Source: Chitinophaga niabensis | GTDB lineage: Bacteria; Bacteroidota; Bacteroidia; Chitinophagales; Chitinophagaceae | DNA: 64,000 bases | Direction: 5' to 3' | Assembly (NCBI RefSeq): GCF_039545795.1 | Contig: NZ_CP154260.1 | Coordinates: 2,981,001-3,045,000, forward strand | In this document: positions 17,946 to 43,411 of the stretch, piece by piece | How positions within the stretch are numbered: position 1 is the first letter of the stretch | Layout of the letters: the number at the start of each line of letters is the position of its first letter | Notes under the pieces: model-generated | Told to the model about the DNA's origin: nothing | The model's database searches: none | What the model saw: the letters and a program-made list of their open reading frames with translations, nothing else | Position numbers and translations under genes: made by a program

Positions 17946-17966
17946 AACCGCTTTTTTAAGCTGATG

Positions 17967-17997
17967 CCGGACACTGTACAAAAGATACAGCGTCCGG
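17967..17997 (-). other. Intercistronic RNA hairpin between giant-protein and PorP genes
   Basis: Two 12-base arms (17967-17978 and 17986-17997) pair fully in the minus-strand RNA, with one G-U pair and a 7-base loop. In plus-strand RNA the same position would be an A-C mismatch, so the structure favours the minus transcript. No T run follows, so it is not a classical terminator; an RNA stability or processing element that sets the ratio of giant protein to PorP is possible. Confidence 0.55.
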
Positions 17998-18013
17998 TGA
18001 TCCGCGTCTGTTT

Positions 18014-18273
18014 TTATCTCAGTATTTCTATCCACCCTTTATAGGCACTTGTGCCTTCGGGGCGTTTCACTTCCAGGATATAGTAATAGGTTCCTTCGTT
18101 CAAACCTGAACCATTCCAGTCGTTCCGGTAATCCTTGTTTTGGTATACCATGCCGCCCCAGCGGTTATAGATATAGATCTTCGATCCCGGGTATTTTTCC
18201 AGGCCTGCGATGATGAACCGTTCGTTCTTGCCATCGCCGTTCGGCGTGAATACATTCGGGAAATTCAGGTCTT
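18014..18273 (-). other. Type B T9SS C-terminal sorting domain of the giant protein
   Basis: The last ~85 residues match the gliding-motility-associated C-terminal domain (TIGR04131/CHU_C type): [14 protein letters not shown], then [34 protein letters not shown], and a final strand GWIEILR. This domain directs export through T9SS and, unlike type A CTDs, generally needs a PorP/SprF-type partner. It is the same type of domain as in the partial gene at the right window edge. Confidence 0.92.
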
Positions 18274-21200
18274 TCACTTCTATCGGTATGCTGGTAGATG
18301 GTGCGCCTGCCTGTGGCGAAGGATGCGGCTGGTCAGGGTTAGCCGGATCTGCAGGCAGTGTTGGCTGCGGTCCGTTCCCATTGTCTACCATCGCGGTATT
18401 CTCAATGCTGGTGATACCCGTCAGGCTGCTGGCCATAGCTACTGTTACAGTAAAGCTCACGGTTTCTGTTGCGCCTACGGCTACAGCAGGGATCGTCCAG
18501 GAAAGATCATTACCATTCCTTATGCCATTATTGTTGATGCTTTCGAATACGGTACCATTTGGCAGTACGTCTTTTACCTGGATATTGGTCACTGCTATAC
18601 TGCCCGTATTACGTACATGCATGGTGTAAGTGATCCTGCTGCCGGAGCGTACGGAACCATTGCTGCCAACCGCTGTGTAAGCTGCGCTCTTCCAGCTGAT
18701 GGTTACCGGGCCGCCGCCATCCACCGGTATTTGCGTGGAAGGTTTGGACGGATCAGGGTTCGGCATTGGATTACCAGGGTTTGCAGGATCTTCCGGGCGG
18801 GTAGGTTTCATACCGCCACCGCCATCAGTTTGTGCCGTGTTGGTGATATTAGTGATACCGGTAAGATCTGTAGCTACCTGCGCAACAAAACTTACGCTCT
18901 GTGTAGCTCCGATCTGAATTGCAGGAATGGTCCAGCTAAGGTTCCTGTTCGTTTGTACACCACCGTTAGCAATGCTTACGAAGTTGGTACCTGCCGGCAC
19001 AACGTCTGCCACTTTCACATTGGAGAGGGTAACATTACCATTGTTCCGCACATGGATCGTATAGGTGATCTGGTTGCCCGGGCGTACCGCACCATTGCTG
19101 CCGGTACCAGTATAACTCACCGTTTTCCAGCTGATGGAACCATCTCCGCCATTGTCTACCGGTATGCTGGTAGAAGGTGTATTCGGACCCGGATTCGGAT
19201 GCGGATTGCCCGGGTTGTTCGGATCTTCCGGAACTGTGTTCTCAGGTCCGGTACCCTTGCCGTCATCCACCTGTGCAGTATTGGTGATAGCAGATGCGCC
19301 TGTCAGATCATTGGCTACTTTTACCCTAAAGCTGCGGGTGACAGTAGTGCCCACCGCTACTTCAGGAATAGTCCAGGTGAGGCGGCGGCCTGCTGGGGTG
19401 ATATTTTCATCCGCATTTACAAAGTCTGTATAAAGCGGCACATTATCAGTTATCACTACCTGGTCCAGTTTTACATTACCGGTATTACGCACATGAATAG
19501 TGTAGGTAATTTGATCACCTGCTTTCACACTGCCACTTGCACCGGTGCCGGTATAACCTACACTCTTCCATTTTACAGAACCTTTGAAATCATTATCCGC
19601 AATGGTCACTGTTGCGCCGGTAGTTGTGGCCGGCGTAAAGCTGCCCAGTGTAGCCGTGCTTCCATTCACGATGGATACTGTTACCGTTCTGCTGCCATCT
19701 ACAAGGATATCATCGATCACTTTCACCGGTACACTTACCTCATTACTGCCTGCCGGTATGATCACAGTAGCTGAAAGCGTTTCGTAATCACTACCTGCCA
19801 ATGCGTTTCCGCTAACAGCCAGGTTCAGGGTAATGTCTTCAGCAGCCGTAATGTTCAGCGGCAGCCTGATGGTATATGCTCCGTTTACAGGCCCCGTTTC
19901 GTGTGCATTGGCAACTGATGCAGTAATACTCACTGTGCGGTTAGCTGCAGTGTTGTCATTATCCGCAATATTCACAGTTGCGGCAGCTGTTGCACCAGAT
20001 GTAAAGTTGATACCTGCGCCATTCACAGTGGCTGTGCCGTTTGTGATCGTTACTATTACTGTGCGGTTACCGTCTATGATACTGTTATTGATCACATCTA
20101 CCGGTATAGTCACCGCGTTTGAATTGGCAGGTATAGTTACCGTACCACTGAGTTGCACATAATCCATAGTGATTGCACCGGCATCTGCACCTGGTTTAGC
20201 TGTGCCACCTATGCTATAGGTTACTGTCACTGGCACAGCCGCAGTTACACCCTGTGGCAGGCTGATGGTGAACTCTCCGTCTCTGGCAGGTTCTGCAGCA
20301 TCCGGGATGCTGGCGGTGATGGCCAGCACCTGGTTAGCTGCTGTGGCATCATTATCCGTGATCAAAACAGTAGCCGTATTAGCAGTTCCGGCAGTGAAGG
20401 CGCCTGCTTCAGATGAAGAAGCATTCGGATCGATGGTGAGCAACACTGTTTCATCGTTTTCAATGATCCTGTCGTCTTTCACTTTCACTTCGACGATCAC
20501 ACTGCTATTGGCTGCAGGCAGGATAATGCCTATGCCCAGGGCCTCGTAATCTGTTGCCTGTACGGCAGTACCACTGGCGGCAAATACTACGTTGATGTTT
20601 TTGGCCGTAGTATATCGTATGCCAGGAGCCGCTTCAGGCAGCCTGATCTCAAAATGTCCATTATCGGCAGGTTCTACTGCATCATCCAGTCTTACCACTT
20701 CAAGTGTGCGGTTGGCTGGTGTATTATCATCATCTGCAATGTCCATCGCCGCAGTATGATCAACAGGATGCGCCGGGAAATAAACATCTGCATTCGTATT
20801 ATCCTTGCCGTTACCTCCCAGTATTTGCAGGCTGATAGTTTCAGTGGCCTCAATGATATAGTCATCTGTTACATTCACATCTATCTCTGCATCATTGGCG
20901 CCTGCCGGTATCACTGCTGTGCCAACAGTGTAATCAAGACCTGCAGTAGCAGAGCCGGAGAGATTATACATCACGGTGATGTCTCTTGCAGCAGCGATGC
21001 CAGGTGGCAGGCTGATCCTGAATTTACCGGTAGTGGCAGGCTCTGCGGCATGACTAACCCATGTTACAGAGATTGGATTATCCGCGGCGGCATTTACATC
21101 CACAATATTCACCGTGGCGCTGGTGCGTGCCGGATCAAGTGTAAATGGTATAGCCGAGGTAACGCCGGTAAGCATCATCACCACATCTTCAGGCCCTTCT

Positions 21201-24200
21201 ATGTTACCATCGTTATATGCTTCAACATCTACCAGTATTTCATTGGAACCGGCAGGAATAGTGAGCGTATTACTGCTGAGTACGGCGCCACCAGGTACCT
21301 GCAACAGCTGGTAATCTGTGATGGTGTTCCGTATCGCTGCACCGCTCATGTTAAAGGTTACGGTTACATCTTCAGCGCTGGTGTAACCCGCAGGTAATGC
21401 CAGGCGGAATCGTCCACGTGCAGCGCCTTCAATAGCATCAGATACTTTGGTGAGCAATACCACTCTTGCACCTGTGCCGGCATCATCGTCCATGATGGGC
21501 ACCGTAGCGCTGCCTGTTGCACCTGCGGTATAAGTGAACTGGCCATCGTTGCCGCCGCTGATATTCATGATCACCGTTTCTGTGGCTTCTATGATCTGGT
21601 CGTTCAGCACATTTACGGGAACGGTTACACTTTGCTGGTAGGCTGGAATAGTAACCGGTACGCTGATACTGCTGTAATCTGCACCTGTAAGTGCTGTGCT
21701 GGTATTACCGATCGTGAAGTTCACCGTTACCGGCCTTGCGGATGTAATGCCTGCAGGCAGGCTGATCTCAAACTCCCCGCTGGTAAAAGGTTCTGCACCA
21801 TCTTTCTTTTTAATGATGGTCAACTGCAGGTTGGCAGGAGTATTATCATTGTCTGCAATGGTCACCGTAGCCGGTGTACCTGCAGGTGTTAAATCATATC
21901 CTGTTGTACCTATGGTCACCGCTCCGCTGCTGATGGAGAGTATAACCGTGCGGTCACCGTCTATTATTGTATTGTTGATCACATTCACCGGGATGGTCAC
22001 ACTATTGGTATTGGCTGCAATCGTTGCAGTACCACTCATCTGCACGTAATCTTTATTCATCACCGTAAGGTCAGCACCAGGTTGCGCAGTGCCTCCTAAA
22101 GTATAAGTAACTGTAACAGGCGCTGCTATAGTAATACCCGCAGGAAGGCTGATGGTGAATTCACCATTCACCGGCCCTGTTTCGTGCGCATTGGCAATAG
22201 TGGCAGTAGCTTCCAGTTGCAGGTTTGCCGGAATGAGGTCATCGTCTGCAATGTTCACTGTGGCTGCGCTGCCGGATGGAGCGTAAACATCACCACCGGT
22301 TGCCGTTGAATTGGCCAGTGTAAGTATTACCGTTTCAGTACCTTCCAGCACTTTGTCGTCTTTCACGGTCACCGGTACAAATACACTGCTGCTTCCCGCA
22401 GGCAGAACAATGCCTGTGCCTGTTGATATGTAATCAATATCTGATGCAGCAGTACCGCTGGCGGCAAATACTACATTGATATTTTCTGCTACGGTATAAC
22501 GTGTGCCTGGCACAGCTTCCGGCAGCCTGATCTCGAACCGTCCATTGGTGGCTGGTTCCGCAGCATCAGTTACCTTCACTACTTCGAGGATGCGGTTAGC
22601 CGTTGTGTTATCGTTGTCTGTAATATTGATCGTTGCGGTGTGGTCTGTAGCATGTGCAGGGAACAACAGGTTGTTACCATTAATATCCTGCCCATTACCA
22701 CCCAGTACTTTCAGGATCACTGTTTCTGTGCTTTCCAGGATATAATCATCTGTCACTGTTACATCCACATCTACACCATTCGCACCAGCCGGTATGATCA
22801 CTGTGCCTGTTGTAAAGTCAGTACCCGCCAATGCAGTACCGCTGAGTGCATAAGACACTGTAATGGCTCCTGCAGACGTGATGCCTGTTGGCAGGGTTAT
22901 CCTGAACCGGCCATTGGTAGCTGGCTCTGCGGCGTCCGTTACTTTTGCAATGGAAAGCTGACCGCTGGCCGCTCCGTTCACATCCACAATATTCACCGTG
23001 GCAGCTGCCTGTGCGGGATCTATGGTGAAAGGCAATGAAGAAGTAATGCCATTCAGGGTAAGTACTACCTGCTCCTGCCCTTCTATCACACCATCATCAG
23101 GTGCATCCACATCGATCAGTACTTCATTGGCACCGGCGGGAATAGTAACAGAATTACCACTGATAACAGCGCCGCCAGGTACGTTAGTAAGTTGATAATC
23201 GCCACTGCGTGCCGCATTACCACTGAGTGCGAAAGTCAGGGTAATATCCTGCGATGAGGTAATACCAGGTTGCAATGCAATACGGTATTGGCCTTTAGCC
23301 CCTCCTTCCACGGCGTCAGATACTTTGGTGATCTGTACCGCACCTGTGGCCGGAGTAAGGTCGTTATCAATAATGTCAACAGTAGCCTGTGCGATGGCTG
23401 CAGTAAAGCTGATAGCAGTACTACCATCCGCTTCAAGGCCTGTGCCTCCGGTGATATTCATGATCACGGTTTCAGTGAGTTCAATCACCTGGTCGTTCAG
23501 CACATTCACAGGTACTGTTACACCCGGCTGGCCTGCTGGTATTATTACCGTGCCGGTGATGGCCTGGTAATCTGTACCTGCACCTGCCGTACCTGATGCA
23601 TCTATGTTATAGTTTACAAAGATATCTTTCAACGCAGTCAGTCCGTCAGGCAGTTTGATGGTGAAGGAGCCGGAGCTGGCTGGTTCTGCGCCATCCGCTG
23701 TTTTGAGGATGCTTAGTTGAAGTTTGTCTGCTGTATTGTCGTTATCTGCGATCGTTACAGTAGCAATATGTGCCGGAGCTGTGGCAGGCGTGAAAAGCCC
23801 CAGGCCGGACGTACCGCTCACAGTAGTCAGTACTACTGTACGGCTCCCATCGATGATGTTGTTATCGATCACATTCACCGGCACTGTCACGCTCTTATCA
23901 CCTGCTTTCAGGATAACCGTGCGTTGCATAGGTTGGAAATCCACACCTTCAGCTGCGGTACCACTTACGGTGTAAGTGATCTCCACATCTTCTGCTGCGG
24001 TGATATTCGGATCCGGGAAACTGAATGTAACAGCCCCGTTCACCGGCCCGGTTTCGGATGCATTGGCTACCGTAGCTGTAGCTGTCAGCACACGATAAGT
24101 GATATCATTATCGTCATCTGCAATGTTCACCACCGCTTCATCCGGTGTACCAATGGGCACAGTTACACCACCCAGGTCAGCACTTTGTAATTTTAAAGAT

Positions 24201-27200
24201 GCGGTTTCTGACAACTCAATGATCTTGTCGTCAGTCACTTTCACCGTTACCTGTACTTCGCCGCTGCCCGCCGGGATCCTTACGGTATTACCGCTGATCA
24301 GGGCGCCGCCTGCATCTGTTAATGTATAATCCGTTCCGTTCACTGCTGTACCTGCAATACTGTAGGTAACATCAATGGCGGCCGTGGTAGTTTGGTTATT
24401 GGCCAGGCGGATGGTAAATGTACCATTCGTAGCAGGCTCTGCTGCATTTGCATTGGAAGCCACTACTTCCACTTTCGCGTTACCCAGGTCATCATCTGCA
24501 ATCGTTACAGTGGCTACAGCTTCTGTTGTGTTCACACCAATGCTGCCTACGGTAGCAGTTGTACCGCCGGTGATAGTGATCACCACATTACGGGACCCAT
24601 CTATAATATTGTTGTCTATCACATCAACAGGAACCGTTACGGAAGAAGCTCCCGCAGGTATCACAACGGTGCCTGTGAGGTTGGCATAGTGCGTACCGTT
24701 CACCGCCGTGCCAGTCATATTATAAGCCACCGTAACAGGCTCTGTTGCTGTTACGCCGTTTGGCAGACTGATGGTGAATAAACCGTCTGTTCCCGGTTCT
24801 GCTGCATTAGGTGTTGTAGCCGTAACAGACAAGCGGGCAATACCAGCATCATCATCCGCAATATTTACCTGCGCAGTACCTTCTCCTGCTTTCACACCTA
24901 TGGTACCAATGGTAGTAGTTGTACCATTAGTAAGGGTGAGTATCACAGTGCGTGTACCATCAATGATCAGATTATTGATCACATCCACCGGAACATCCAC
25001 GGAAGGAGCACCGGCAGGGATGATAGCCGTACTGCCTAACAACGTATAATCTGTACCGTTAGCTGCAGTGCCGGTGATCGTATATCCAACTGTTACAGGT
25101 TCCGTAGCGGTTACGCCCGCTGGCAGGCTGATGGTAAAGCTTCCGTCTGTGGAAGGTTCGCCCGCATTAGGTGTACCTGCTGTGATGGACAGTTCTGCCA
25201 AAGCGGCGTCATTATCTGCAATGGTAACTGTAGCATCGTCTGCAACAGCATCCACGCCAACATTTACCAGCTTGCCATTGATAGTGGCCTCACCACGGTT
25301 CAGGGTCACTATCACTGTTCTGTTACCATCAATAATTGTGTTATCTATAACAGTTACCGGGATCGTTGCATTTGAAGAAGATGCAGGAATGATCATGGAA
25401 CCGCTTATTGTGATATAGTCTTTATTTACTTCAGCTGCGCTTGCACCTGGTACGGCCGTGCCAGTGATCTGGTAGTATACGGTGAGCGGCTGTGTTGCAG
25501 TAATACCTCCCGGCAGGCTCAGGGTGAATTCACCTGGTGTGCCCGGCTCTGCTGCATTTGGTATGCTGGCCGTGATCTGCAGTTTAACATTGGCCGCATC
25601 ATCATCATGGATCGTCAGCGTTGCTTCATTACCTGGCGCCGGCGCCGTAAATGCACCTAGTGTGCTGCCAACAGGCAGATCAATGCCGGTAATGCTCATC
25701 ACAACACTTCTGTCCCCATCTATCAGCGAATTGTTGATTGGCCTGATCGTAACGGTAGCTGAAGGCTGGCCTGCAGGAATAGTTACAGAGAGCGGAATGG
25801 TTTGATAGTCTGTGCCATTTACCGCCTGGCTGCCTGTAAGCGCCAGGTTCACTGTGAGCGGTTCCGCTACAGTGATGCCATTAGGCAGGCTAATGGTAAA
25901 TGTTCCATTTACCGGCGTAACACCTTCCTGCGCATCAGGTTGGGTAGCCGTAATGATGAGTGTGCGGTTAGCCGCTGTGTTATCATCATCATGAATGGTG
26001 AGTGTAGTATTGGTTGGGTTCACCGTAAATGGCGTGCCATATGGGTTACCACCAAAAACGCTCACTGCACCTGCTGTGAGGATCACCGGACGGTCGCCGT
26101 CTATGATGTTGTTGTTAACAGGGATGATGTTAACATCCACAGCAGTCTGACCGGCCGGAATAGTTGCGGTCAGCAAACTGATGGTCTGGTAATCCGTTCC
26201 ATTCACTGCTTTACCGCTGAGTGTATAACTGATGGTCAGATCGCGGGATGCTTTCACGCCGTTGGGCAGGCTGAACGTAAATACGCCATTCACCGGTGTG
26301 ATATTTTCCTGTGCATCTGGTACCGTAGCCGCCAGTGTCAGCACAAAGTTAGCCGCTATATTGTCGTTATCGGCAATGTTGAAATTAGCGGTGTTCTCTG
26401 TAGCGTGTGCTGTAAATACTGCGCCGCTCACAGTGCTGATGCCGGTATTGCTGATTGTTACGGTAACGTTGCGCGTACCATCAATGATGTTATTATCAAT
26501 CACGTTCACCGGTACATCAATGTATCCTGCACCGGCAGGAATGATCACCTGTCCGCTGAGTTGTACATAATCCATATCGGTTGCGCCGGTATTTGTGCCA
26601 GGTTTGGCTGTACCAGCAATCGTATAATTGATGGTAACTGCTTCATTGGTCAGTACCAGGTCCGCACCGCCAGCTGTACCCGGCAGCTTGAAGCGGAAGT
26701 TTCCGTTCACAGGACCAGTTTCATCACCGTCCGCACTTGTTTTTAATACGCTCACCACACGGTTCTCCGGTTTATTGTCATCGTCAGAAATGGTCATATC
26801 TGCGGATGCTGTAGCCGATGGTGTGAATGGCCCTACCGGAGAAGTACCGCCGGTGATGCGCAGCACTATATTCTCGTTTAACTCTATGTTATAATCGTCC
26901 AATACGGTAACAGGTACATCCACATAAGCCTGGCCTGCTGCAATAGTGGCCGTGCCGGTATTGGTTCCCTGAATGTAATCGGCCAGTGTGAAATCAGCGC
27001 CATAGGTAGCTGTACCGGCATCCAGTACATAGTTGACCGTAATAGCTCCTGCCACCGTCATACCGGTGGGGAGACTAATGCGGAACACGCCGTTATTAGC
27101 GCCACCGCCTGGTTCTGTAGCCTGACGTTGTACAGCTGCGCTCAATTCCTTGACACCACCGTCTTCGTCTATGATATCCAGAGACACATCTGCCGTGCTG

Positions 27201-30200
27201 GCAACAAATGGCAGTGTACCTGCCGTTGCGTTCTGCAGGCGGATCACCACATTCTCTGTTGGTTCAATAATGTTATCATTCAGCACCGGTAAGGTGATAT
27301 CTGCATAATTGTTGCCCTGGGTGATCACCACTGTACCGCTCAGGTTGGTGTAGTCTACACCTGCGGTAGCAGTACTACCCGGTTGTACGGTATAGGTTAC
27401 CGTAATATCCTTGCCGGCTTTTAATGTACCTGCCAGGTGTACGCGGTAAGTACCTGCAGCGGTTGGTTCTGCACCGTTGGTAAGGACGGTTGCAGCTACC
27501 GTCATGTCATAACCCGGATCATCCTGGATGAACACGGTGCGTTCAGCAGTACCTTGTACAGGTATTGCCTGGCTGCCGGACGACAACACGGCTGTTGCTC
27601 CGTTCAGGCGGATGTTTACGGATTCTTCCCCTTCTATCAGATCGTCAGTTAACGCCCTGATGGGGAGATCCACTGATGGCTGTCCTGCAGGTATTTTTAC
27701 CGTGCCTGCTCCTGTTCCCGGGTCATAAGTGCCGGTGAGCGCACCGAAATCGATCACATAGTCTGATGTAACCGCGGTGCCGGTGGGTAATACGTTGAAG
27801 CTAACAGTCAGATCATTACCGGCCACCGCTGAATTGGTCAGTGCAAAACGGATGTAACCATTTGCCGCTCCTTCAAAGGCATCATTCACTCCGGTTGTGC
27901 TGATGCTGGCAGTTATTTCATTATCTGTGATATTCACTGTTGCGGTTTCTCCTGGTGACGGGGCAGCAGTGAAGGACACTACTGTAGCACCATAGGTAGC
28001 TGTGGCAGGTGTAGCCGGCAATGTGAGAATTACGGTTTCGGTACCTTCCAGTATAAAGTCGTCTTGCACGGTCACTGTCACTTGTTTGCTGCCTTCATTT
28101 GCCGGCAGCGTAACCGTAGTGCCGATATTACTATAGTCGCTGCCTTCAGTTGCTGTACCCGTGATGCCGAATGTAATATTCAGCGGTATGGAAGAAGTAT
28201 AACGTAAACCAGCTGCGTATTCAGGCAAGCGTATTTCAAACAGGCCGTTAGCGCCAGGTTCTGTGCCATCGTTCAGTTTCACTACTTCCAATACATGTGC
28301 TGCTGCATTTAAAATATCATCATCAAGAATATCTATTGTACTCACATTAGCAGCAGGATCTGCGGGGAATGAAACCGTTTGTCCCGGGGTTGCAGCATCG
28401 TCTGCATTTCCGCCCAAAACGGTGATCACAATATTCTCCAGCCCTTCGATGATATGATCGTCCAGCATACTTACCGTTACCGGGGCAGATGCCTGCCCTC
28501 CAGGAATAACAACCGGCAGGATCGTCTGATAATCCACACCCTGTGCGCCAGTGCCAGTGATGGCAATAGACACGGATATCGGGTTTGGATATGCAAAGCC
28601 GGTTTTGGTACCCACCGTGAGATTTACGGTACCGCCCGCTTCACCGGCGCTTGCAGTAGCCGGACTGATCACCAGTTCATTAGCCACACTACCATTTACA
28701 TCCAGGATATTCACGGTAGCGCTGGCAGGGTTCAATGTGAATGGATCGCCATTTCCATTCACAGCGTTTGACAGGGTGAGTATAACTGTTTGAGTAGGTT
28801 CTATCAGCAAATCTCCGAATGCATTTACTTCCACGATTATGGAGTTCTGGCCTGCAGGGATCGTCAGCGTGTTAGTGCCTGTGTTGATGTGCGCAGCCGG
28901 TACCAGATCATACCCGTTTGGATCGTTGTAGGTGGCAGTACCTGAAAGCGCATAAGTTACTGTGATTGGTGTAGAGCTGGTAATGCCGGGAGGAAGTGCA
29001 ATTTCAAACCTTCCTTTTGCACCGGCTTCTACTGCATCGGACACACGGGTGAGCAACAGCACATCCGAGTTCGCATTGTAGTCTTCATCTGTAATATTTA
29101 CAGTGGCAGTAGCAGTACCCGGAGTGTAGGCATGTATCCCATCGTCTCCGGCGGTTACATCCACTTTAACTGTACGCGTGCCATCAATAACAAAGTTGTT
29201 GATCACATTCACATTCACCCTAACCCCGTTGTCGCCTGCTTTTATCACCGCTGTACCTGTCAGTGCGGCAAAATCTATTCCCGGTACTGCACTGGAATTA
29301 GGATCATCAAATGAATAAGTCACATTAATATCGCGGGAAGCGGTTACGTTCAGCGGAAGGCTGATCGTAAAGTAACCGTTTGTAGCAGGTTCTGCTGCAT
29401 GTTGTGTTGCATCAATGTTCAGTACCAGGTTAGCGGGTACAGCATCATCATCACCAATGTTAACTGTAGCCGGAACAGATGAAGCGGTTAGCGTCAATCC
29501 TGTGGCTGTAACATTGGTCATCGTGAGGATGGCCGTTTCGCTGCCTTCTATGATCAGATCATGCAACACGCGCAGAGTTACAGGTACGCTGGTCTGACCT
29601 GCAGGGATGGTTATAGTATTGCCAGTGATAATGGCATTGGTTGCATCGCGCAGTTCATAATCCACACCACGTACACCGGTACCACTTTCGCCAAACGTTA
29701 CAGTAATATCGTTCGCCGCAGTAAAGGTGGCTGGCAGGCTGATAACAAAAGTGCCATCGTCCCCAACCGGAGGTTCTGTAGAAGTATTATCAGTAGCGGT
29801 GATCGTCACCAGTGTTTTGGCGGGATCTGTGCGCTCATCATCAAAAATGCTCAGGGTGGTGGTACGCATCGCTGCGTCCAGCGGATGAGCCGGATACAAG
29901 CCGCCATTGCCATCACCCAGGTCCAGAACAATCGTTTCATCTGTTTCGATGATATTATCATCTGTTACAGGGATTGTAACGATCACTTCGCTTTGGCCGG
30001 ACAGGATAGTAGCTGTGCCAGTAGCAGGATACGTATAGTCCGTACCGTTTGCCGCCGTACTGCTTACATTAATTGCATAATTAAATGTGATATCCTCAGA
30101 AGAGCGCACACCCGCAGGCAGGCTTACTTTGTACTGGGCGTTTTGCGGCACCGTATTACCCGGTGCTTTCTCATAACCATCCTGTACTTTGGTGATACTG

Positions 30201-33200
30201 AGGTAGCGGGCAGAAGGAGGATTATTGTCTTCAATCACCACCGTAGCCGTGGCCGCAGTTGGGCTGTTGGTAAAGGTAAAGCTCGTAGAACCGGCGGAAA
30301 CCTGGTTGAGGACCACGGTTTCATTTGCTTCCAGCAGATCGTCCGTTTGAACGGTCACTTCCAGCGTAGCGCTGTTCTGACCGGCAGGGATGATGAGCGT
30401 GCCGGTGCCTGTACCTGCATTATAATTGAGCAGCGTATAGTCCGTTGCATAAACGGCCGTTCCTGCACCCAGGTTATAAGTGACAGTGATATCTTCCGAA
30501 CTGGAATATCCTGATGGCAGGCTGAAGGTGAACTGGCCATGTACCGGCCCGTCTTCTTTGGCTGGTGTAATAGTGGCTGTTACGCCTACTACCGTATTGG
30601 CAGGAATATTATCGTTGTCGTTGATATTTGCTGTTGCTTCAAATTCAGTTGTATGTAAACCGTAAGGAGATGAGCCACTGGCACTGGTAAGTGTGAGCTT
30701 AACTGTTTCAGTCAGCTCTATTACCTGGTCATTCACTACGGGCACATCTACATCCACACCGTTGCTGCCGGCAGGTATTACCGCAACACCTGTAAGCGCA
30801 ACAGCATCCAGGCCGGCAATCGTATAATCATTTATGTTAGCGGCGGTTCCGCTGATGAGGTATTGAACGGTAACATCTTCGGTAGCAGCCAAAGTACCCG
30901 GCAGTTTGATCCTGAACTTACCATCTGTGGCGCCTTCGGTGCCATCTGTAGTTTTCAGTACGCTTATTACGCCGGTAGCTGATGTTAGCCCTCCAAAAGT
31001 AGAGAAGCTCTGGATATTGCTGAACTCAACATATTTCACACCATTCTCTTCACCATTTCCGGTAGGTGTTATTTCTGTCATATTATTCAGGCCGGTTTCC
31101 GTCAGGTCAGTGATCACATTCGCTACTGTACCGGAATGTTTAAACCATTTCCAGTTTTGTGGAGTTGTAACACCACGGTCGTTAGCCAGGTAATTTTCTG
31201 CCGCCGTTCTTTCCGCATCATTCCATAAGAAACGGACTTTCACCCCACCATTCACTGTGAGCGGTGTACCGGTGTAAGTGATCTGCAGCATGCGGCGCAT
31301 CAATTGTGTTCCATAATCTGTACCACTGGCTTTGCCCAGTTCTGTGGCCATATCCCTGTTTACGGAAATGTAAGCTGAGAACTGAGCAGGGTTGATCGTA
31401 TTACCATTTGGATCTATTGCGGCGATGTATTTATCAGGGTCCGCAGGGTCTTTGAAGTACAACATGCCATTGGCATCCAGGCATACACTGGCTGTTGTGG
31501 CATCTGCAGCGTCTGGCACCAGGAAGGCTGCGGGAGCTGCCACATTACGCGTTACCAGTGTAAATACAGCACCATTGGTGAGGCTTCCCACGTTATCGAA
31601 TTTCACTTTATCAACATCCAGTTCGCTGGCAGGGATCAGTGTATAATCCGCAGGCGCCAGGGATGCGAAATTGCCGCTGCCGGTCTTATCTATCAGCAGC
31701 GCATAATGTTCCGGCAAAGTACCGGTACGGGTAATACCGGTAAGATCAAATTCAAGATCTACCGGTGCTGTAGAATTATCAAAGTTTGAAAACTGTACTT
31801 TCCATTCACGGGTCAGCCTTTCTTTGATACAACCTGGCAGGTCTGCACTATTTGCAGTTACTGCACCGGCGTTGCTGCCCCAGGTCAGATAACTTTTATC
31901 TGTTGTGAAGCTGGCGCTGTTGGAAATATTATCAAGCGCAATATTGCCCAGGCCTATTGTTAGGATGGCACCGGCATTTATACTGCGGCTTTGTTTCTGA
32001 TTCAATGCTGTTGCATCATCGCGTCCGATACCGGCTATATTCACATTATAAGTGCCATTAATTGCGGCTTCCCATGTTTTGGTAGTGCCGTCTGTAGCCA
32101 GGTAGTCCTGCGGTGTAGTTTGGTTAAGTGTAATACCATATTTAATACCCAGGTAAGATTCGATCTGCCTTGCCTGTGTGGAGTTGAGCACTGATTTGTA
32201 TACGATCACCTCAGGGATCTTACCATTGAAAACGCGGCCATCAAATGAGGCGGCCCCTGAAGTGCGTCCTCCCACCTCAAAGAATGAGCCGGCAGAAGTA
32301 CCGCAGCCTGGTCCTGAAGCAACTTCAGTTCTGCCATCAATCGTCATCGAACCACCCAGCCCAGTACCAATAGTTGTATAAACGCCACGAACTACCCTTG
32401 GTATTGTGTTACCCGATGTACTTGTTGCTCCGAAGCAACCGCTTCCGTCAAGTGTATAAGCTGCCCCTACTGCGTTCAGGCCAATACCACCGGATCCAGA
32501 TCCACCATCAACTGTCCAGTTTGCTAACCCGGAAAATACACCCGCCATGTTAGTGGGGCCTGCCAGTGGTCCTTCCACTACGCTGGTTGAAAAAATCGAC
32601 AATTGTGTAGCATCCCAGTCCGTAGTAGAATTTCCCTTTAATGACTTACTAACAGCACCCGTAAAATCTACAGCGGGGTTAAAGTTAAGACCAACCGGCA
32701 CTTTGATGATATCCGCTGATGCCGCAACAGGATCAGTATGGGTCGTAGCTGCTGCTCGTAGCTCAGTGGTAACAATGCCGCTACCGCTCTGATCGGCCCA
32801 CTGCTCAACTTGGTCGCTGCCGTTCACCGTCAGGCCTGCGTTCGCCTTCACCCATAGGGAACTTCCTATAACTCCGCCAGGCGCTGTTATAAACGCGGCA
32901 AAAGTGAAATACTGTCCATTTGTAAGATTAGCCGAAGCAGCATAATGGTCCGTTCCATTCAGGGCTAATTCAGACAATTCATAAAACTGATCAGCCGCAT
33001 CGAATACAGCATCATTACTTACCACAAGATAAGGCGTAGTGCCATTAACCGGCAATACGCTTTTAGGAACAGCTATCTGTACATCGCCTGCCGCACCAGT
33101 ACGCTGTGTTTTCCACACACGCGACATGCGGTAATTCACATTGGAACTACCGGTGATAGCTGTATTAAATGTTGTGCTGCCATTATCATCCCCCCATACG

Positions 33201-36200
33201 AGGTAAGACAAATTGCTGCCGAAAGTATTGGTATTTGAAAGATTCTCTTCTGCCAGTGTGCCAAGGCCCACGGCTATTTGCAGACCGGTATTAACACTAC
33301 GGGATTGTTTCTGATCTAACCCTTCCACATCATCCCGGCCAATACCGGCTATATTGTTCTTATAAGTTGTATTCGCAGTGGCATCCCATACTTTAGTAGT
33401 CCCATCCGTAGCGATATAATCCGTTGCGCCATTATTCAGTGTAATACCATATTTGATCGAGAGATAGGTATTTACCTGCTGCTGCTGGGCGGCTGTGAGC
33501 GCAGAAGTATAGATGATCAATTCACCGAAACGGCCGTTGTAGGGAACATTAGCTGCCGTATTTCTGCCCAGCAGGAAGGGACTGTTATTACCTGTAAAGA
33601 GATCCGCACCACCTCCGGAACCACCTCCGGTAGCCACGGTCACACCATTCTTGTAAATGGCCTTCCGGTTGGCGAGAGGCAATGTAATATTACTGGTGGT
33701 AGTCCAAAGATTTGTCTGATTGTTGATCCCTCCTGTATTAAAAGTGAGTCGGTTTGTAGCCGGAGCATCCCAGGAAACAATATTATCTGACCAGGTAGCA
33801 TGCAGGGTAAAATAGTTAGCAGCCGCACCGGTGAGAGCTGACTCCGTAAAAATTACGGCGTTATTGGCAGTTGCTTGGTTACCCACAAAGAATGCGGCAG
33901 CGGCGTTATAAGTACCTGTTTTCAGAATAGAGCCTCCCGTCATGCCTGAATTGACACCATCATATTTCACTACCGGATTAAAGTTGATGTTGCCGGCAGT
34001 ATTGTTGAGATACAGGGGTTGATTAAGCGCAGTTGCCTGCGTAACGTTATTCAGATCAGACGCATAATCTATCCATCCATTAATAGCGGTATTATCCGTA
34101 TTACTGGAAGTACCTTTATCAGCACGTAACCAGATGGTAGTTCCCACTATGCCGCCGGGCGCCTTGATGGAAGATGCAAAACTGAAATACTGCCCGGTTG
34201 TAAGATCCGCTGCAGCAGCATAATGCTTCACACCTTTCAGGGTAATTTCAGTTAAGGGGATGAACTGGTCTGTTCCATCCAAAGTGGCGTCGCTACTTAC
34301 TACGAGATAGGTTTCCATTGAGTTAGGCAACACATCATAGGGTACTGCTATCTGCACATTACCAACGGTACCGCTCTCCTGAACTTTCCATACGCGGGCC
34401 ATGCGGTAGTTCACCGCCGGGTTACCGGTTATGACAGTTTTGAACAGTGTGCTGGCGTTATCATCGCCCCAGGTGAGGTATGATTTATCTGTTGCAAAAA
34501 TATTAGCGTTCAGTTCATTTGTTTCAGCGATATCCCCCAGGCCAACAGTTACCTGTAAACCAGTGTTCACGCTACGGGATTGTTTCTGGTTCAGGTCTTC
34601 CATATTATCCCAACCTATACCTGCAATGTTGTTCTTGTAAGCAGCATTGGCTGTACCATCCCAGATCACGGTACCATCTGTTGCCAGGTAGTTGGCAGCA
34701 ACCGACTGGTTCAATGTAACACCGTATTTTATAGCAAGGTAGGAACTGACACGCTGAAACTCATCATTAGTAATATCCCTGTTGTAAAGGATGACTTCAC
34801 CGATACGGCCATTCCACTGGCGGTTTTCTCCTACAAATTTACCTACCTGTGCGCCTTCAGCAGTGAGAATGGTATTCCAGTTCCTGGCTGCGTTGGCAAG
34901 GGAAGTAATACCATTCGCATACACACGGGCATCCCCCGTGGCTCCTCCTGCGTACCGGCCACTGATAATTGTAGCCATGTTTATAGGGAAGGAATTCGCA
35001 GGGCCTATAATATTGCTGGGATTTCCATTTGCTTCAAATATAGCCTCTCCGGTTACCGATCTCCTGAAACCGGAAGACTGGTTACCTACGAAGGCGCCAT
35101 AAGTGAAGAGGGCCTGGTCTGTAGCATTTGAGTTGGTGACCGCAACTCCCATGATGGTTCTCGCAGCATTGCCCACAGGGAATTTCCCGGTGATGGAGGC
35201 TTGTGAAATCTTCAGAAAATCATTTATGCCATCAAACTTCAGGGCGCGGTTAAAATTAAGATACCCCAGCTCCAGCACCGGCTGGCTGGCAACAGTCAGC
35301 TGCTCTGCGATTAAGCCAGAACCTGCATAATCTATCCATTGGGTAACGTTATTACTGCCATCGTCTAAAGTATTGGCATCAGCACGTAACCACAAACTGG
35401 TAGCAGCTACATTACCCGGGTATTTTACAATAGCCCCGTAAGTAAAGTAAACTCCCTGCGGCAGCAGGTTTGAATTAAGCGTAACAGTACCCTTGCTGTC
35501 TAAAGGCAGTTCCTGATCAACCGTAGCAAAGGTGGGATCAGTACTGATCAGGAGGTATTTATCACCGCCAACAATATTGGCGGCCAGTGTAATATTCTGA
35601 TCTGCCCAGTTGGTTTTCTCCACTTTCCAAACCCTTTCCATATGGCGGGTTGAACTAACGCCAGGCAGTGGGGCCTGCACCACACTATAACCAACAGCGG
35701 ACAAGCCATTATCAGCAAACGTCAAGAAAGAAAGATCGTTTGTAATGGTTTCAGAGATCAACTCATTTGTCAGCGCTATTTTTGAACCCAGGGCTATGGT
35801 AACAAAACCCGCATCTGCGTTCAGAGATTGTTTGGTATTAAGACTGGTCTCATCATCACGGCCAATACCGGTGATGCGATGCCTGTAAGTGGCATCGGCT
35901 GTCCAGTATGTGCTGCCATTCGTAGCCAGGTAATTGGTAGGTATAGTCTGGTCCAGCGTGATACCATATTTCAATGCCAGGTAAGAAGAAACCTGCTGGC
36001 GTTCCACAGTGCTCAACACCCGGTTGTACGCTACTACTTCAGCCATGTCCCCCCTCCAGTACGCACCGCGTCCGGCAGTTGTTCGGGAACCGATAGACAC
36101 AAGATTGGTTGTGGTGGGGCTGAGTGTGTTATTGGCCTGGGCTTCCAGTTTATTATTACCGTATAATTTGAAGCCATTCGCTGCGTTCGTTTGGGTAGCA

Positions 36201-39200
36201 CCGAAAAGATAAGGCCTGTTCTCCAGGAAAGTTGTGGTAGTTGTTGCCGCCTCTATTGCGGCAGCGTTTTCCAGGGTTTGTAACTGGGCAGTACCGGTGA
36301 TCCGGAATTCCATCCCCTGATTACCGCCCACTAAACCGGAGCCCACCAGTTCCCTGACAGCGTTATAACCTGTGCCTTTCGCTACGGCAAATATGGTGGA
36401 ATTGACAGGATCGATCCTGGTTGTATTGATATCAAAGAAATCATCCGTACCATCAAACCGGAAGGTATAATTGAAGTTGATGCCGCGTGCATCCATGATA
36501 GGTTTGCTTGCCAGAACGGTCTGAGCGGCGTCATTGCCTAATCCGCCATAGTCCTGCCATTCTGCTGCGTCAGACACCATATCATCGGCACGTAACCAGA
36601 AGGTCATACCATTCTTAATGGCATTTGGCCCGCGTACATAATGGGCAAGGGTAAAGAAAGAACCATTTGGCATCTCGCTGCTGTTCAAAGTAACGGAGCC
36701 ATCAGCGTTCAATTGTTTCCAAACCGGTGTTCCCGTGGTGAAGTTTGCACTGTTATGCAACAGCAGATAAGTATCATCATTCCCTCCTGTTATTTTCAAC
36801 GTAATGTCTGCATCTGCCCAGGTGGCGGATTTCTCCACTTTGAAAATGCGGCTCATATGGGAAGCCAGACCGGCCCCGCCCACAATAGATATACGGTAGG
36901 AAGCAGCGGCATTATTATCCGCAAAAGTGAAGAAAGAAAGATCGTTAGTAATGGTGCTTGTATTCGCTTCGTTGGTTGGCTGCACAGTGCTGCCCATGGC
37001 AATAGTCACCAATGCGCCGGCCGCTACGGAACGGGATTGTTTTTGATATAATATAGACCCATCGTCACGGCCAATGCCGGTGATTCGCCTGTTATAACCG
37101 GTATTGTTTGCAGCCGTCCACATCATCGTGGTGCCATCGCTGGCCACATAATTGGTAGGTGTAGCCTGGTTGAGCGTAACGCCGTATTTGAGCGCCAGGT
37201 AAGCGTTTATTCGCAGTATCTCTGCAGCCGTGGGCGCTTTGCTGTACACGATCACTTCTCCCATGTTCATGCCTGTTCCATCACCATTGTCTACTACATC
37301 ACCTACATTGTACCCGCCTGTTGCAGCTGCAATTGTTCCCGGTGTTTGCCCGGTACCAGCCAAACCGTTGAGGTAACCTGTGCCGGTGCCGGCATTGGCT
37401 ACAAAGCCCGCGATATGCGGTTTATCTGTAAAGGCATTTCCTGCGGTAAGTCCGGAATTATTGGTGATCAGCTGGTAACCTCCACCAGCAACAGCGGTAG
37501 TATATTCTACCCGGGCGGAATTAGTACCTTCTGCTATCACAAAAATGTCCGTTGCATTGGTACCCTTCAGCGGCTCCAAAGCAAAGAACAGGGCATAACT
37601 GCCACTGCCTCCCATTTTCAGGTCCGTGCCGTTAAAGGCATCTTTGGTCATGTCTGAGAACTGCAAAGAAGGATTGAAGTTCATGATACCCGGCAGGTAT
37701 TCAATAGTGCCGGCCACTCCGCTGGTATGATTACGCTGACCGGAGAAATCATTCCATGCTGTTGCATTTGCGCCGGTAACTATAACGTCCTTGTCTGAAC
37801 GAAGCCAGAGTTTGATAGACGTTGCCACAGCACCCGGCCCCTGGATGTTCCTCGCAAATGTGAAATAGGCGCCATCCGGCAACAGGTCACTGTTAATAGT
37901 TACCTGGCCATTATCATCCAAAGGATAAGTAACATCGCCTGCACCGAAAGTATTGTCGTTGCTGACCAGTAAGTGGATATAACCTTCTCCTCCGTCCAAT
38001 ACCAGCGTGACATTTCCACTTGCCCAGTTGGTTTTGTCTACTTTATAGATGCGTGGCATGCGATAAGTAACACCTGGCACACCGGTCACCCGTTGTGTGT
38101 AGGTAAGCACTCCGCCGTTATCACTGAATGTGAGGAAAGAGAGATCGTTGGTTATTATATTATTATTGACGAGGTTGGAAGCGGGCACATCATTGCCAAT
38201 GGCAATGGTAACATTTGCCCCCGCTCCTTCTGAGCGGCTTTGTTTCTGATACAGCGTTCCGTTGTCGTCACGACCGATACCCGTGATCCGTTGACCATAG
38301 CCGGTATTTTTAGAAACCGTCCACATATTGGTGGTGCCGTTGCTGGCAATATAATCTGTGGCAGTACCAGCAGCGTTCAGCATAGTCAATCCATATTTCA
38401 GGGAGAGATAGCTGTTCACGCGGGTGCGTTCCGGATCAGTCAGTTTCCTGTTATAAAGCACAAGCTCAGACATCCGGCCGTTGAAAACGGAACTATGCCC
38501 TGCAAAAATGGCGTTGTTGATACCCGTTCCCCGGCTAAAGCTAACGGGGAATGTGGTGCTGCTCGTGGCCAGCTTTCCATCAAAATTCACTGCCCAGCTT
38601 GCGGGAGCGCTCCAGTTATTCAACAGGTGAGGGATCTGCATATTGATCCCGCCGAATGAAAAATTTCTGCGGGCGTTAGTACCAAAGGACGTATAGTGCT
38701 GCCCGTTACTATAGTGATAATAGGTCAGCGTAAAAGTGGCATCTCCCCCGAATTCAAAGGGAAAACTTGCCGTAGTGGAAGTAGAAGGCAGATTGGAATA
38801 CTGTACAGAAAACACTTCCCCCTGTGTGAACCCTTCCGCAAATTTAGGGACGCTAAAATAGCTGACACCTGTAGAATTAATGGCGGGATTAAAGTTAATG
38901 GCTGTGTTCTCCCAGGCTAATGTCTCTGTGCCTATCTTGGCCCATACTCTGTCCACCGGCGCCTGGTCCACCCACCTTGTAGCATCACTGCCAACAGTCA
39001 CTACATCCTGATCTGCTTTTACCCATGATTGCAAACCATTGTTTACACCGCCGGGATATTTTTGTACTCTTCCAAAGGTAAAGAATGCACCGTCCGGCAG
39101 GTCTGAGCCTTTTACTGTGGCCATCCCCCCGTTGTTCAACGGCACTTCTTTAGTGACTGTGCCAAAAGCTCCATCCGTGCTGATCAACAGGTAATTGTTA

Positions 39201-42200
39201 GTACTGCCTCCTTTGAGTTGCAGCGTTACATCCTGCATATCATCCCAGCTGGCGGTCTTTTGCACACGCCATACACGCGCCGAACGCTCAGTGGCTATAA
39301 CGCCTGGTAAAGCAACCGGCATAGTGTAGGCAACACTACCATTGTTATCGCTAACAACAAGGAAAGCGAGGTTGTTGGTAATGTTATTATTATTGAGGCG
39401 GTTAGCGGCAGCAACGGTTGCGCCTATTGCAAGGGTAACGCTACCGGCCACCTGATTGATAGATTGTTTTTGGTGCAGCCAGGAAACATTGTCTTTGCCG
39501 ATACCAGTAATGCGTTTGCCAAAACCTGCATTCGCGGTTTTGCTGAAGATCACCGAACCATTGCTGGCCAGGTAGTCGGTTGTATCCAGTGTAACGCCGT
39601 ATTTGATCGCCAGGTAGCTTTCAATTTTCAGGCGGTCGTCATTAGTGAGAGCGGTAATATCTTTATAAATGATCACCTCCGGAATTTCACCCGCGAAATA
39701 ATCCTGGCCTGCATATACGCCGATAAGGGAACCATTATTCCCCCCATTGCCTGCGAATGCATAGTTTGCCGACTGACTCTTCAATATATTATGATCACGG
39801 AAAACGCTCATATTGGTCAGCGTTTTGGTAAAGCTCCATACATTGGGGAGCTTCAGGGTACCACCCCAGGCCACCCCAGTAAGGCGAAAACCGTAAGGCG
39901 CATCCCACAGCACATTTCCGTTGCTCCAACTGGGTGACGCAGCTACGTAGTAGTTATTGCTTGTCAACTGGTTAAACAAGGCTCCATTTTTCAGTGCAGA
40001 CGAAGATGAAACGCCAAACACTGCGATCTTCTCCATATTACCATTGCCAAGTACAGAAAAGGCAGGATCTACTACACCGCTTTTACCGAAGTATTGCGCG
40101 GTGCCTGAAAATGTGGCTGTAGTATTAAAGTTGATACCAGTCACACTGTCCACTCCCGGCGCGCCAACCCTTGGAAGGTTCTTGGCATTTCCGCTGATAT
40201 CATTCCACTGGGCGCCGCTCAATCCCATATCGCCCCGGTACCATGCAGCAATGCCGGCGTTTACGCCGGCAGGTCCTGAGATGTTCACGGGCACCGCATC
40301 ACTGAATTCTGAAGTGCCTTTGGCGGAGGTAAGTGTGGCGGTCCAGAAGCCGCCCGGCGTACCATTGTAAGTAGCTGTTTGTATGGCTGTGCCTGCTGGT
40401 ACGTTGTTGTAGGTAGCCACCAGTTCACGGCCGCTGTTGGGAGTAGTACCCGCTTCATTTGCATAAAGGTGTACTGTATAAACAGGCCCGGCGCCATCCG
40501 CAGCAATCACCGGGATGCGTATACCCACATTGTAAGTACCGCCACTACCGGAAGATGAAGTGATAACCGGGCGGTTGGCCCCTTTATAACTGCCATTGGC
40601 AGCCGCTGCGATGAAAATACCATTTGTAACGTTATTATATATACTGTTACCGGTGATGATCGTACCCTGTGTATTATCGTTGGTGTTAAAATAAACACCA
40701 TGGCCGCGGTTATCATGTATCCTGTTGCCGGTGATACTTATATTCCGTGTGCCGCTTGCGCCTGCATGCAGCCAGATACCGTGGAGCGTATCGTTCCGTA
40801 TATCATTTCCGGTTATATCGATCTGTGCTGTTGCATGCACCTGGTTGATCACGATACCTGCCCGGCCACATCTTTCAATAATATTGTTCGTGATCTTCAC
40901 ATTGGATTTGGGAAAGGTTCCGGCAAACTCTATCCCATCGCTCTGTGCACCACCTGCTTTGCTGATGGTAGAATTTTTCAGTTCAAAAGTATTCACGGCC
41001 CCGGCTATGGTCATCCCCTGTGCAATGTCATCTATGACCAGGTTATCCATTACCACATTTGTAAGACCATTGCGGAAGTTGATCCCATCGGCACGCAAGT
41101 GTGAGATACTCACCGTTTTCAGGCTGGCATTAGTAACCAGGCCATCAAAGTAGATACCCAGCGCTACCTTGTCCAGCGGGTCCCCGCCTATCAATACATC
41201 ATCCATCGTAAGGCCGGTAACAGCTCCCCTGAACCGTATGGAGGTATCGCTGGCGTTATGCGCCAGATTGGCATTGGTGAATTCAGAAGCGGTGATCGTA
41301 ATATTATTCGCCGCTGCACGAAAATGAAGATTGTTAAAACCACCCTGCAATACTTTTGTATTATGGATCAACAGGGTATTTACCGCTCCCATAAAGTCAA
41401 TCCCGTAATCCGCCTCCGGATTAGCAGTGATCGTTGGCGCGGCAAGATCAAAATAAGAATTTCGGAATTCCACCTTTTCGGTGGTGGCACCTGCACGGAA
41501 TGCATAGTCCGTTCCATTCGTCCAACCTGAAAAATTAATATTATCAAACGTTGCATTCTTAAGGCTGCCCAGCACCTGGATACCTCTGGCAAGCGGAGAC
41601 ATCTCTACATCTTTTATCAGCGCAGTATCCAGGGACGCGGTGCCCATGAATTCCATGAACATAGCCCCGGTAGCTGTACCTCCTGAATTGCGGGCATTGA
41701 TATTTACATCTTCAATTGTCAGGGATGCGTGCCGGCCGGCTGTAAATGCAAAAGCCCGGCCTGACGGGTTTGTATTGACTGCTTCCAGCCCCATTTCTGA
41801 TATAATGTTCCGGATGGTCAAACGCCGGGATGCCCCGGCCACTGTCACGATATTGTTCAGCAGGTCCGCTACAGTACCTGTTGTGTTCACCTTTAACCCC
41901 TCAATGGTTACATCCTCCGTATTGGCATTTACCAACACTCCACTTCCTCTTGTATTGAGCAGTTCAAAATTTTTAATGGTAACAAAATTGGAGTTGACGG
42001 TAAAGAAAGCAAGTGCAGCGCCATTATTGGCGTTGATCGAAACCCTGTTTTCCCCGTCAATAGTGAGGTTTGCCACCGTTATTGCGGGCAGGTTGCTGGC
42101 AATATTAATGACACCATGAACGTTGAATACGATACTATGCGGTCCTACCCCTCCTGCGTTTGCATCAAGGATGGCCTGCCTCAATGAACCAAGACCGGCA

Positions 42201-42328
42201 TCATTGGTGTTGGTGACCGGGAATGAAGCCGCTTTGGCACACATTGCCCCTAACAAACAAGGGATCAATAAAAGATATCTCGAACACGCAGCAGTGCGCA
42301 CCCACATAGGTTGTAGAAATTTCTTCAT
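18014..42328 (-). CDS. Giant T9SS-secreted multidomain surface protein (8104 residues, SprB-like adhesin class)
   Basis: One uninterrupted 24.3-kb frame. A signal peptide (about 1-34, ending MCAKAAS) is followed by [18 protein letters not shown], a start common to large beta-helix surface proteins. Order: right-handed parallel beta-helix (about 35-620); seven tandem ~400-residue modules (about 690-3600); a linker region; about 30 Calx-beta repeats (about 3785-7580); three DUF11-like repeats (about 7580-8015); and a type B T9SS C-terminal domain (about 8020-8104, [35 protein letters not shown]). No sortase motif, protease or glycosidase motif was seen. Cysteines are rare. The CTD, and the PorP and OmpA genes behind it, indicate secretion through T9SS and display at the surface; adhesion, gliding or filament functions are inferred from the class. 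It has its own transcription unit, since a terminator lies upstream at 42602-42636. Confidence 0.95.
18290..19585 (-). repeat. Three tandem DUF11-like (conserved-repeat) domains in the giant protein
   Basis: Three repeats with a period of about 435 bp (145 residues). Each opens with a strand like [15 protein letters not shown], then [16 protein letters not shown], a D-x-(V/L)-P turn, [11 protein letters not shown], and an INNTAQVD-like end followed by a Pro/Asn/Gly-rich linker ([15 protein letters not shown]). They probably form a rigid stalk between the Calx-beta array and the CTD. Confidence 0.85.
19585..30975 (-). repeat. Array of about 30 Calx-beta repeats in the giant protein
   Basis: I count 30 copies of a ~105-135-residue Calx-beta-type unit. 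Each opens with a strand such as [18 protein letters not shown], continues with DYTL...VIPAG, and ends with an acidic loop and a strand before the next linker (INDNDN-like). Calx-beta domains form calcium-stabilised beta-sandwiches. Nineteen copies keep the expected E-x-x-E pattern after the DD-like turn (for example IIEATETV). Eleven have NN or DN followed by IDG-x-R (for example IIDGTRTV), which removes ligand positions. Near-repeated DNA over 11 kb would also make this region prone to recombination and assembly error. Confidence 0.9.
31100..40260 (-). repeat. Seven tandem ~400-residue modules in the giant protein, with a distinct end piece
   Basis: Copies start near 40255, 39050, 37840, 36630, 35420, 34160 and 32880, a period of about 1205-1280 bp. 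Each has (a) a concanavalin/LamG-like part beginning with a W-(L/V)-(R/K)-A-D pattern and a W-x-D turn; (b) the constant motif YL-x-x-KYG-x-TL followed by DY(L/I)A(S/T)(N/D)G; (c) I(T/A)GIG-x-D-(N/D) and a QKQS motif; and (d) a strand-rich end, RVWKVEK ... LP-x-G-x-FTFA. The seventh copy passes into a unique end piece (about 31100-31820) with [16 protein letters not shown] recognise no named function; glycan or surface binding is suggested by the LamG-like part. Confidence 0.8.
40460..42229 (-). other. N-terminal right-handed parallel beta-helix of the giant protein
   Basis: About 590 residues of short repeating strands with Asn and Gly at turns: [83 protein letters not shown]. This PbH1-type pattern is typical of pectate-lyase-like helices. 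No lyase active-site residues could be picked out, so a structural or binding role is more likely than an enzyme. Confidence 0.8.
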
Positions 42329-43402: not shown

Positions 43403-43411
43403 AAAATCAAT

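Follow-up and report, generated by a model that had tools for sequence, protein, structure and literature searches.

A giant predicted type B secretion cargo of Chitinophaga niabensis, probably a fibrillar adhesin, with a conserved seven-position head and signs of exchange

The closest described counterparts of the gene examined here encode type B cargo proteins of the type IX secretion system (T9SS). Passages of two reports state that an adjacent PorP/SprF protein is needed for the export of such cargo and binds it at the cell surface (PMC12618676; PMC9143113). In the SprB–SprF system of Flavobacterium johnsoniae a very large type B cargo has an SprF-family gene directly downstream (PMC12618676, in part), and part of a further report describes a Cys-X-Cys tail through which SprF bonds to GldK and without which movement is not sustained (PMC12635249). 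Two other operons, Fjoh_3952/3951/3950 of F. johnsoniae and PG1035-PorP-PorE of Porphyromonas gingivalis, comprise a type B cargo, a PorP/SprF partner and a PorE-like protein or PorE (sections of PMC12618676 and PMC9143113, respectively). Fibrillar adhesins, including the CshA-like proteins, combine adhesive domains with tandem stalk repeats, and domain shuffling and CHU_C anchors are described for them in portions of PMC8286594 and PMC10952558. We compared these systems with a giant gene in 64,000 nt of the Chitinophaga niabensis genome (GCF_039545795.1, NZ_CP154260.1:2,981,001-3,045,000, forward strand; this whole stretch is the window, and all positions are numbered within it). We propose that the product is probably a type B T9SS fibrillar adhesin, statically held, with a head whose positions have their own identities and show signs of exchange.

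The giant gene is one frame on the minus strand (18014-42328), with an ATG start and no internal stop in 8104 amino acids, and was correctly bounded in the preliminary description of this DNA. An assembly artefact is very unlikely, because the genome is a single contig (7,201,998 bases) and frames of the same make-up are present in other genomes. All five kinds of domain listed in that description—a beta-helix, seven modules of about 400 residues, about 30 Calx-beta repeats, three DUF11 repeats and a type B T9SS domain—were recovered by profile or alignment; the Pfam search it had proposed matched the beta-helix, Calx-beta, DUF11 and CHU_C, and a linker domain absent from it was added. The head is composed of a right-handed beta-helix at its N-terminal side (residues 34-682, 40283-42229; PF13229, E 2.4e-19 with residues 1-680 searched) and seven modules, M1 (residues 683-1089, 39062-40282), M2 (1090-1496, 37841-39061), M3 (1497-1898, 36635-37840), M4 (1899-2302, 35423-36634), M5 (2303-2722, 34163-35422), M6 (2723-3148, 32885-34162) and M7 (3149-3566, 31631-32884), all on the minus strand, as are the other parts of the gene. 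The modules are 402-426 residues long, with pairwise identities of 28-46% within the protein, and each has a jelly-roll half followed by a second half. A structure model of M4 (mean predicted local distance difference test score, pLDDT, 87.7; predicted template modeling score, pTM, 0.91) was matched by fold comparison to concanavalin A-like (LamG-type) jelly-rolls, and the matches listed hardly reach the second half.

Behind the head lie the linker (residues 3567-3779, 30992-31630), a stalk of 30 contiguous Calx-beta repeats (residues 3780-7577, 19598-30991), three DUF11 repeats (about residues 7578-8020, 18269-19597; E 1.2e-44 in three stretches) and the type B T9SS C-terminal domain, CHU_C (residues 8021-8104, 18017-18268), which scores above the cut-offs of PF13585 (E 6.6e-26, 90.7 bits, cut-off 27) and TIGR04131 (54.7 bits, cut-off 35). 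The linker gave no Pfam or NCBIfam match and no convincing relative among solved structures (best E 0.16); it is common to the relatives, with a mean identity of 72% over 23 proteins. All 30 Calx-beta repeats exceed 86 bits with a profile built from the protein's own repeats; a 31st row (residues 7640-7698, -0.8 bits) was dropped, and the counts make no use of a loose regular expression for the Calx-beta loop, which overlooked some repeats. The Pfam Calx-beta model finds 21 separate stretches, with a whole-protein E of 1.5e-141. The stalk thus has the tandem repeats by which fibrillar adhesins are recognized. The main text of PMC8286594 contains neither 'Calx-beta' nor 'DUF11', and in the parts of PMC8286594 and PMC10952558 at hand no array with a position-conserved scaffold and exchanged jelly-rolls is seen.

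Two genes follow the giant gene on the same strand. The nearer (16941-18035) encodes a PorP/SprF-family protein (PF11751, E 2.1e-65; TIGR03519, 233.8 bits, cut-off 90.55), listed from a GTG codon; an internal start is likelier, so the 22-base overlap with the giant gene is perhaps unreal. The second (15094-16923) encodes an OmpA/PD40 protein (PF00691, E 3.2e-16) that we call PorE-like only, since its 248.9 bits lie below the curated PorE cut-off of 600 bits (NF052230). This is the gene order of Fjoh_3952/3951/3950; the locus differs from both static operons named above in that its cargo is an 8104-residue head-stalk protein and its PorE-like gene lies under the PorE cut-off. The PorP/SprF partner ends in NPRYF without Cys-X-Cys, no cysteine occurs in the last 45 residues of any of the 30 cognate PorPs examined here and in relatives, and none of the 12 full PorP/SprF matches of the host genome has a Cys-X-Cys tail. 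A statically anchored adhesin is expected because the PorE-like gene is present and the tail is lacking in the 30 cognate and 12 genomic PorPs; cargo with a PorE-like gene in its operon has been seen or suggested to be static in F. johnsoniae (PMC12618676, in part). The likeness to SprB raised in the preliminary description thus extends to the giant type B cargo, and parts from it at the PorE-like gene and the missing tail, the pattern of static cargo, from which static display is predicted; this comparison concerns the operons.

The protein would be exported by the Sec pathway—residues 1-33 (42230-42328) resemble a Sec signal peptide, judged from the translation by eye—and would then cross the outer membrane through the T9SS by means of its type B domain, to be collected by the adjacent PorP/SprF protein. 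That partner, itself linked to the cell wall by the PorE-like OmpA protein, would hold it at the surface, so that the adhesin would remain in place rather than travel on a gliding track, while the 30 Calx-beta and three DUF11 repeats would keep the head away from the cell. The head would bind through concanavalin-type jelly-rolls, one on the conserved second domain of each module, a fold modeled for M4.

The combination of domains, not recognized in the preliminary description, turned out to recur within the genus and to be deposited already under other names, and a unique architecture is rejected. A paralogue of 7042 residues in the host genome has a beta-helix, seven modules, 26 Calx-beta repeats, one DUF11 and CHU_C, using profiles from these proteins. 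The module profile matches 28 of 60 genomes of the genus, host included (E <= 1e-20), 47 of 244 in a sample of the family (E <= 1e-20, at most 7 candidates scored per genome) and 14 of 296 in a sample of the phylum (E <= 1e-30, at most 6 candidates per genome). Named relatives are mainly from Chitinophaga: 19 of 80 kept loci bear the genus name, most full-length matches among them. Domain order was compared across Chitinophagaceae, as had been proposed, and the same layout recurs. We read 48 giant frames for architecture, of which 30 carry CHU_C, 28 of these with Calx-beta repeats; the 28 have seven modules (23 frames), six (2), four (2) or three (1), and 25 have a beta-helix. Their stalks vary from 26 to 40 Calx-beta and from one to three DUF11 repeats.

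Among deposited proteins with Calx-beta and PF26628, which we take to be DUF8202, those of Chitinophaga and Parapedobacter numbered P0006, P0008 and P0012 resemble the giant protein in having a beta-helix, seven modules, the linker and 27-33 Calx-beta repeats; P0006 and P0008 also carry CHU_C, which was not found in P0010 and P0012, both marked partial. No characterization of these relatives was seen. Precomputed annotations assign PF26628, the family taken for the second half of the module, to 29 of 29 relatives in one set and to 39 of 40 in another; our second-half profile matches 40 of 40, and 3 relatives have PF26628 with no jelly-roll match. P0003 and P0009 have the same beta-helix with 16 or 11 modules, and Calx-beta and CHU_C were not found in them. 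Literature searches returned no paper under 'DUF8202' and none joining 'Chitinophaga' with 'Calx-beta'; among the matches listed for SprB/SprF, for Chitinophaga gliding, adhesins or LamG, and for giant genes, mostly seen as titles only, no title names the architecture.

Head, stalk and anchor are each found apart, which supports the earlier suggestion of a head on a long stalk, as does the variation of stalk length while 23 of 28 frames keep seven modules. Six relatives from other genera of the family are heads with no stalk (beta-helix and seven modules, 3761-3816 residues, no Calx-beta, no CHU_C). In four further stalkless frames, six modules and the linker accompany a beta-helix match that is broken into fragments; the one of them that was checked has a type A sorting domain at its end. 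Two frames within the genus combine three modules with three or four DUF11 matches and CHU_C and have no Calx-beta, and a 3901-residue protein of the host genome has a stalk of 19 Calx-beta repeats with no modules. Partner genes were counted among at most three downstream genes of at least 200 residues per frame. PorP/SprF lies directly downstream in 30 of 30 CHU_C frames and 0 of 18 frames lacking CHU_C (for one of which, G296, the stretch read held no downstream gene); a PorE-like gene accompanies 28 of 28 Calx-stalked frames and 0 of 2 CHU_C frames lacking Calx-beta, and the second downstream gene of G233, one of the 18, is OmpA-like (E 1.2e-9). That the partner genes follow the base is an association rather than proof, because the 18 frames come from other genera. 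Next to each of the six stalkless seven-module heads (L068-L072, L074), at distances from a 4-base overlap to 57 bases, lies a gene for a protein of 378-404 amino acids with similar N-terminal sequence, which ends in a type A T9SS domain in both cases scanned; the C-terminal 285 and 327 residues of two of these heads, similar to one another, gave no Pfam or NCBIfam match.

Positional identity was examined in 23 in-genus seven-module proteins by asking whether a module half finds its best match in another protein at its own position. It does in 3410 of 3542 comparisons for second halves and in 3213 of 3542 for jelly-rolls, against an expectation of 1/7 with no positional identity; the relatedness of the proteins makes these comparisons non-independent. 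At all seven positions the average divergence of the jelly-roll halves exceeds that of the second halves. Identity is best kept at position 4, which retains it in 138 of 138 comparisons with other genera for both halves, and position 7 does so in 138 of 138 for second halves and 31 of 138 for jelly-rolls. Comparison shows the seven head positions to be largely orthologous within the genus and partly so across genera. Recent tandem amplification of the modules is rejected by the 28-46% identities within the protein and by the second halves of positions 4 and 7.

Of 161 genome-position cells, 10 depart from this pattern, in that one or both halves retain positional identity with under half of the other proteins; eight are displaced in the jelly-roll only, two in both halves and none in the second half only. 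The clearest case is M5 of the window protein, which appears to carry a jelly-roll from elsewhere (34826-35422) on an M5/M6-type second half (34163-34825). Against its relative G032 the second half is 68% identical and the jelly-roll 27%, where the other six jelly-rolls are at 55-77%; identity falls over some 30 residues at the module start and returns at about residue 2525, some 24 residues into the second half. This jelly-roll has its nearest counterpart at position 4 in a stalkless frame of six modules from another genus (54% over 189 residues) and groups with jelly-rolls of other frames (support 98). The other position-5-type jelly-rolls form a clade (support 100), and adding window M5 to it is rejected by the approximately unbiased (AU) test (p-AU 0.0065). 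In a three-row donor test, grouping the second half of M5 with two six-module partners is rejected (p-AU 3.3e-56), and its placement in the M5/M6-type group is not (p-AU 0.14). In the window protein, G032 and G021, the M6 jelly-rolls belong to the type that most relatives have at position 5. The remaining displaced cells match otherwise: the window protein and G032 at position 3, and G021 at position 1, match the same position within that lineage, the M3 jelly-roll of the window protein having one close match (G032 position 3, 77%), and for positions 3, 5 and 7 of G021 the best matches (44-55%) lie in part under the same position number in frames that are stalkless or have six modules. Old variants, and not exchange, may account for these remaining cells. 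In GC content the exchanged halves do not stand out.

At a larger scale, comparison shows different histories for head and base in two relatives, G033 and G053. The base was taken as C-terminal domain plus PorP, with the linker tested apart, and lineage A as 18 proteins; the AU-test groups were set after the first trees had been seen, and tree searches were quick. Taken jointly, linker, C-terminal domain and PorP place the window protein, G032 and G021 in one group with G033 and G053; C-terminal domain and PorP give this five-row group a support of 95 and lineage A one of 97, and joining lineage A is rejected for both G053 (p-AU 3.7e-4) and G033 (0.017). The G033 linker is likewise rejected from lineage A (p-AU 6.9e-7, G050 left out). 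The second halves of M1, M2 and M4, by contrast, place lineage A, G033 and G053 together on one side of a branch (support 100), and leaving out G033 (p-AU 3.7e-4), G053 (0.0069) or both (1.2e-5) is rejected. For the beta-helix, leaving out both is rejected (7.8e-17) and G033 alone weakly so (0.034). Identity values put the change-over of G033 in or near M7 and that of G053 behind the linker, which in G053 shares 85% identity with a lineage-A linker. A single tree for the whole gene is rejected for G033 and G053 by the conflict of base with M1/M2/M4 second halves, the beta-helix tests not being decisive for G053. The linker of G050 also departs from lineage A (baseline rejected, p-AU 1.1e-4) and its base does not, perhaps another exchange.

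The functional assignment is drawn entirely from fold and operon comparison, and a number of points weigh against the interpretation as a static adhesin with an exchanging head, some of them fitting other explanations. Jelly-rolls can also bind protein or nothing, and across genera the head positions are less constant: compared with the six stalkless heads, jelly-rolls keep position in 433 of 966 cases and second halves in 688 of 966. A moving adhesin of the SprB kind, driven by a gliding track, would suit a giant type B cargo with an SprF-family partner and the deposition of two relatives as gliding motility-associated-like protein; some room is left for movement because the genome has a GldJ-like gene (351 bits, below the cut-off of 458.2) and because T9SS motility is known in other Chitinophaga pinensis strains (PMC13070061, in part). 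We consider it unlikely given the absent Cys-X-Cys tail, which SprF needs for sustained movement (passages of PMC12635249), and the adjoining PorE-like gene, which goes with static cargo in F. johnsoniae (passages of PMC12618676). Quite unlikely, too, is a multi-site scaffold for polysaccharide capture and processing, in which the jelly-rolls bind, the beta-helix acts as an enzyme and nearby SusC/SusD loci are fed. The best fold match of M4 is the domain 4 region of a GH43 arabinanase (one entry title contains 'in complex with arabinot'), the beta-helix has profile matches to mannuronan C5-epimerases, and the operon is flanked on either side by SusC and SusD genes and has GH116 and GH43 genes to its right; the epimerase matches, however, are weak (E 3e-4 to 9e-4, best 3.3e-4), and a stalk of 3798 residues seems longer than a scaffold for feeding should require. 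When the module alignment was used for a sequence search, the matches fell on flanks, except for one at E 0.94.

The exchange signal itself could reflect rate variation or deeply retained variants in an ordinary long adhesin with a stable head, the least probable of the explanations considered. The greater average divergence of jelly-roll halves at all seven positions is in keeping with this, as are the post hoc tests and the finding that G021 M3, M5 and M7 have some of their best matches under their own position number in stalkless or six-module frames, an outcome also expected of old variants that were retained. All ten displaced cells lie in 3 of the 23 proteins (window protein, G032, G021), a single lineage, so a general exchange is not demonstrated; only M5 of the window protein and M6 (window protein, G032, G021) match another position, and a strict M5-only clade for the second half of window M5 meets weak rejection (p-AU 0.044). 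On its own, the beta-helix does not reject G053 outside lineage A, and placing the beta-helix of G033 or G053 with window-type heads and G027 is not rejected (p-AU 0.53 and 0.73); a constraint lacking G027 (p-AU 1.5e-43 and 5.5e-4) overstates the case. Rate variation, however, does not explain why the window M5 jelly-roll is twice as close to position 4 of another genus as to position 5 of G032, nor do fast-evolving sequences produce matches such as those of the three M6 jelly-rolls within the position-5 type, and module second halves and base remain in conflict for G033 and G053. We retain the statically held adhesin, in whose head the seven positions keep their identity across most proteins of the genus; by comparison, individual jelly-rolls have histories of their own, as do head and base in two relatives. 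The purpose may be to change the range of ligands with the display machinery kept. A bolder version, possible but doubtful, sees the head as a seven-slot address plate of position-specific scaffolds with exchangeable lectin-like cartridges, whole heads being traded between stalk-and-anchor lineages; if it is true, cells change the glycans they grip with no alteration of export, anchoring or reach.

The class of type B T9SS fibrillar adhesins is known; what sets this protein apart, these comparisons suggest, is less its set of domains than its head, in which seven positions are conserved and exchange is hinted at on two scales. Relatives are deposited as 'Calx-beta domain-containing protein' or 'gliding motility-associated-like protein', names that reflect the stalk repeat or gliding and not what the proteins hold out. 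With head, stalk and anchor separated, head positions can be traced across species and candidate exchanged pieces named, and it can now be asked whether the jelly-roll set decides the attachment target, and whether the operon type (PorE-like gene, no Cys-X-Cys tail) predicts static display across Bacteroidota.

The host genome has 23 CHU_C matches, 12 full PorP/SprF matches and a thirteenth, fragmentary one, and four further giant frames with CHU_C (L003-L006; 3901, 6045, 3526 and 3338 residues). Directly upstream of the giant gene, on the same strand (42641-49282), are genes for an extracytoplasmic function (ECF) sigma factor, a FecR-type protein, a TonB-dependent receptor and two proteins (42641-44209) with no Pfam or NCBIfam match; no Rfam family was found within the window. 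SusC/SusD pairs flank the operon on both sides (2569-10623 and 51125-61492), with glycoside hydrolase (GH) genes of families GH116 and GH43 on the right and a 3-keto-disaccharide hydrolase family gene on the left, surroundings that have the look of polysaccharide utilization loci. The TonB-dependent receptor at 51125-54301 has a type I dockerin match at residues 837-880 (PF00404, E 2.6e-6), odd for this type of protein, and a short tandem array of about 5 copies of an 11-base unit is located at 62750-62811.

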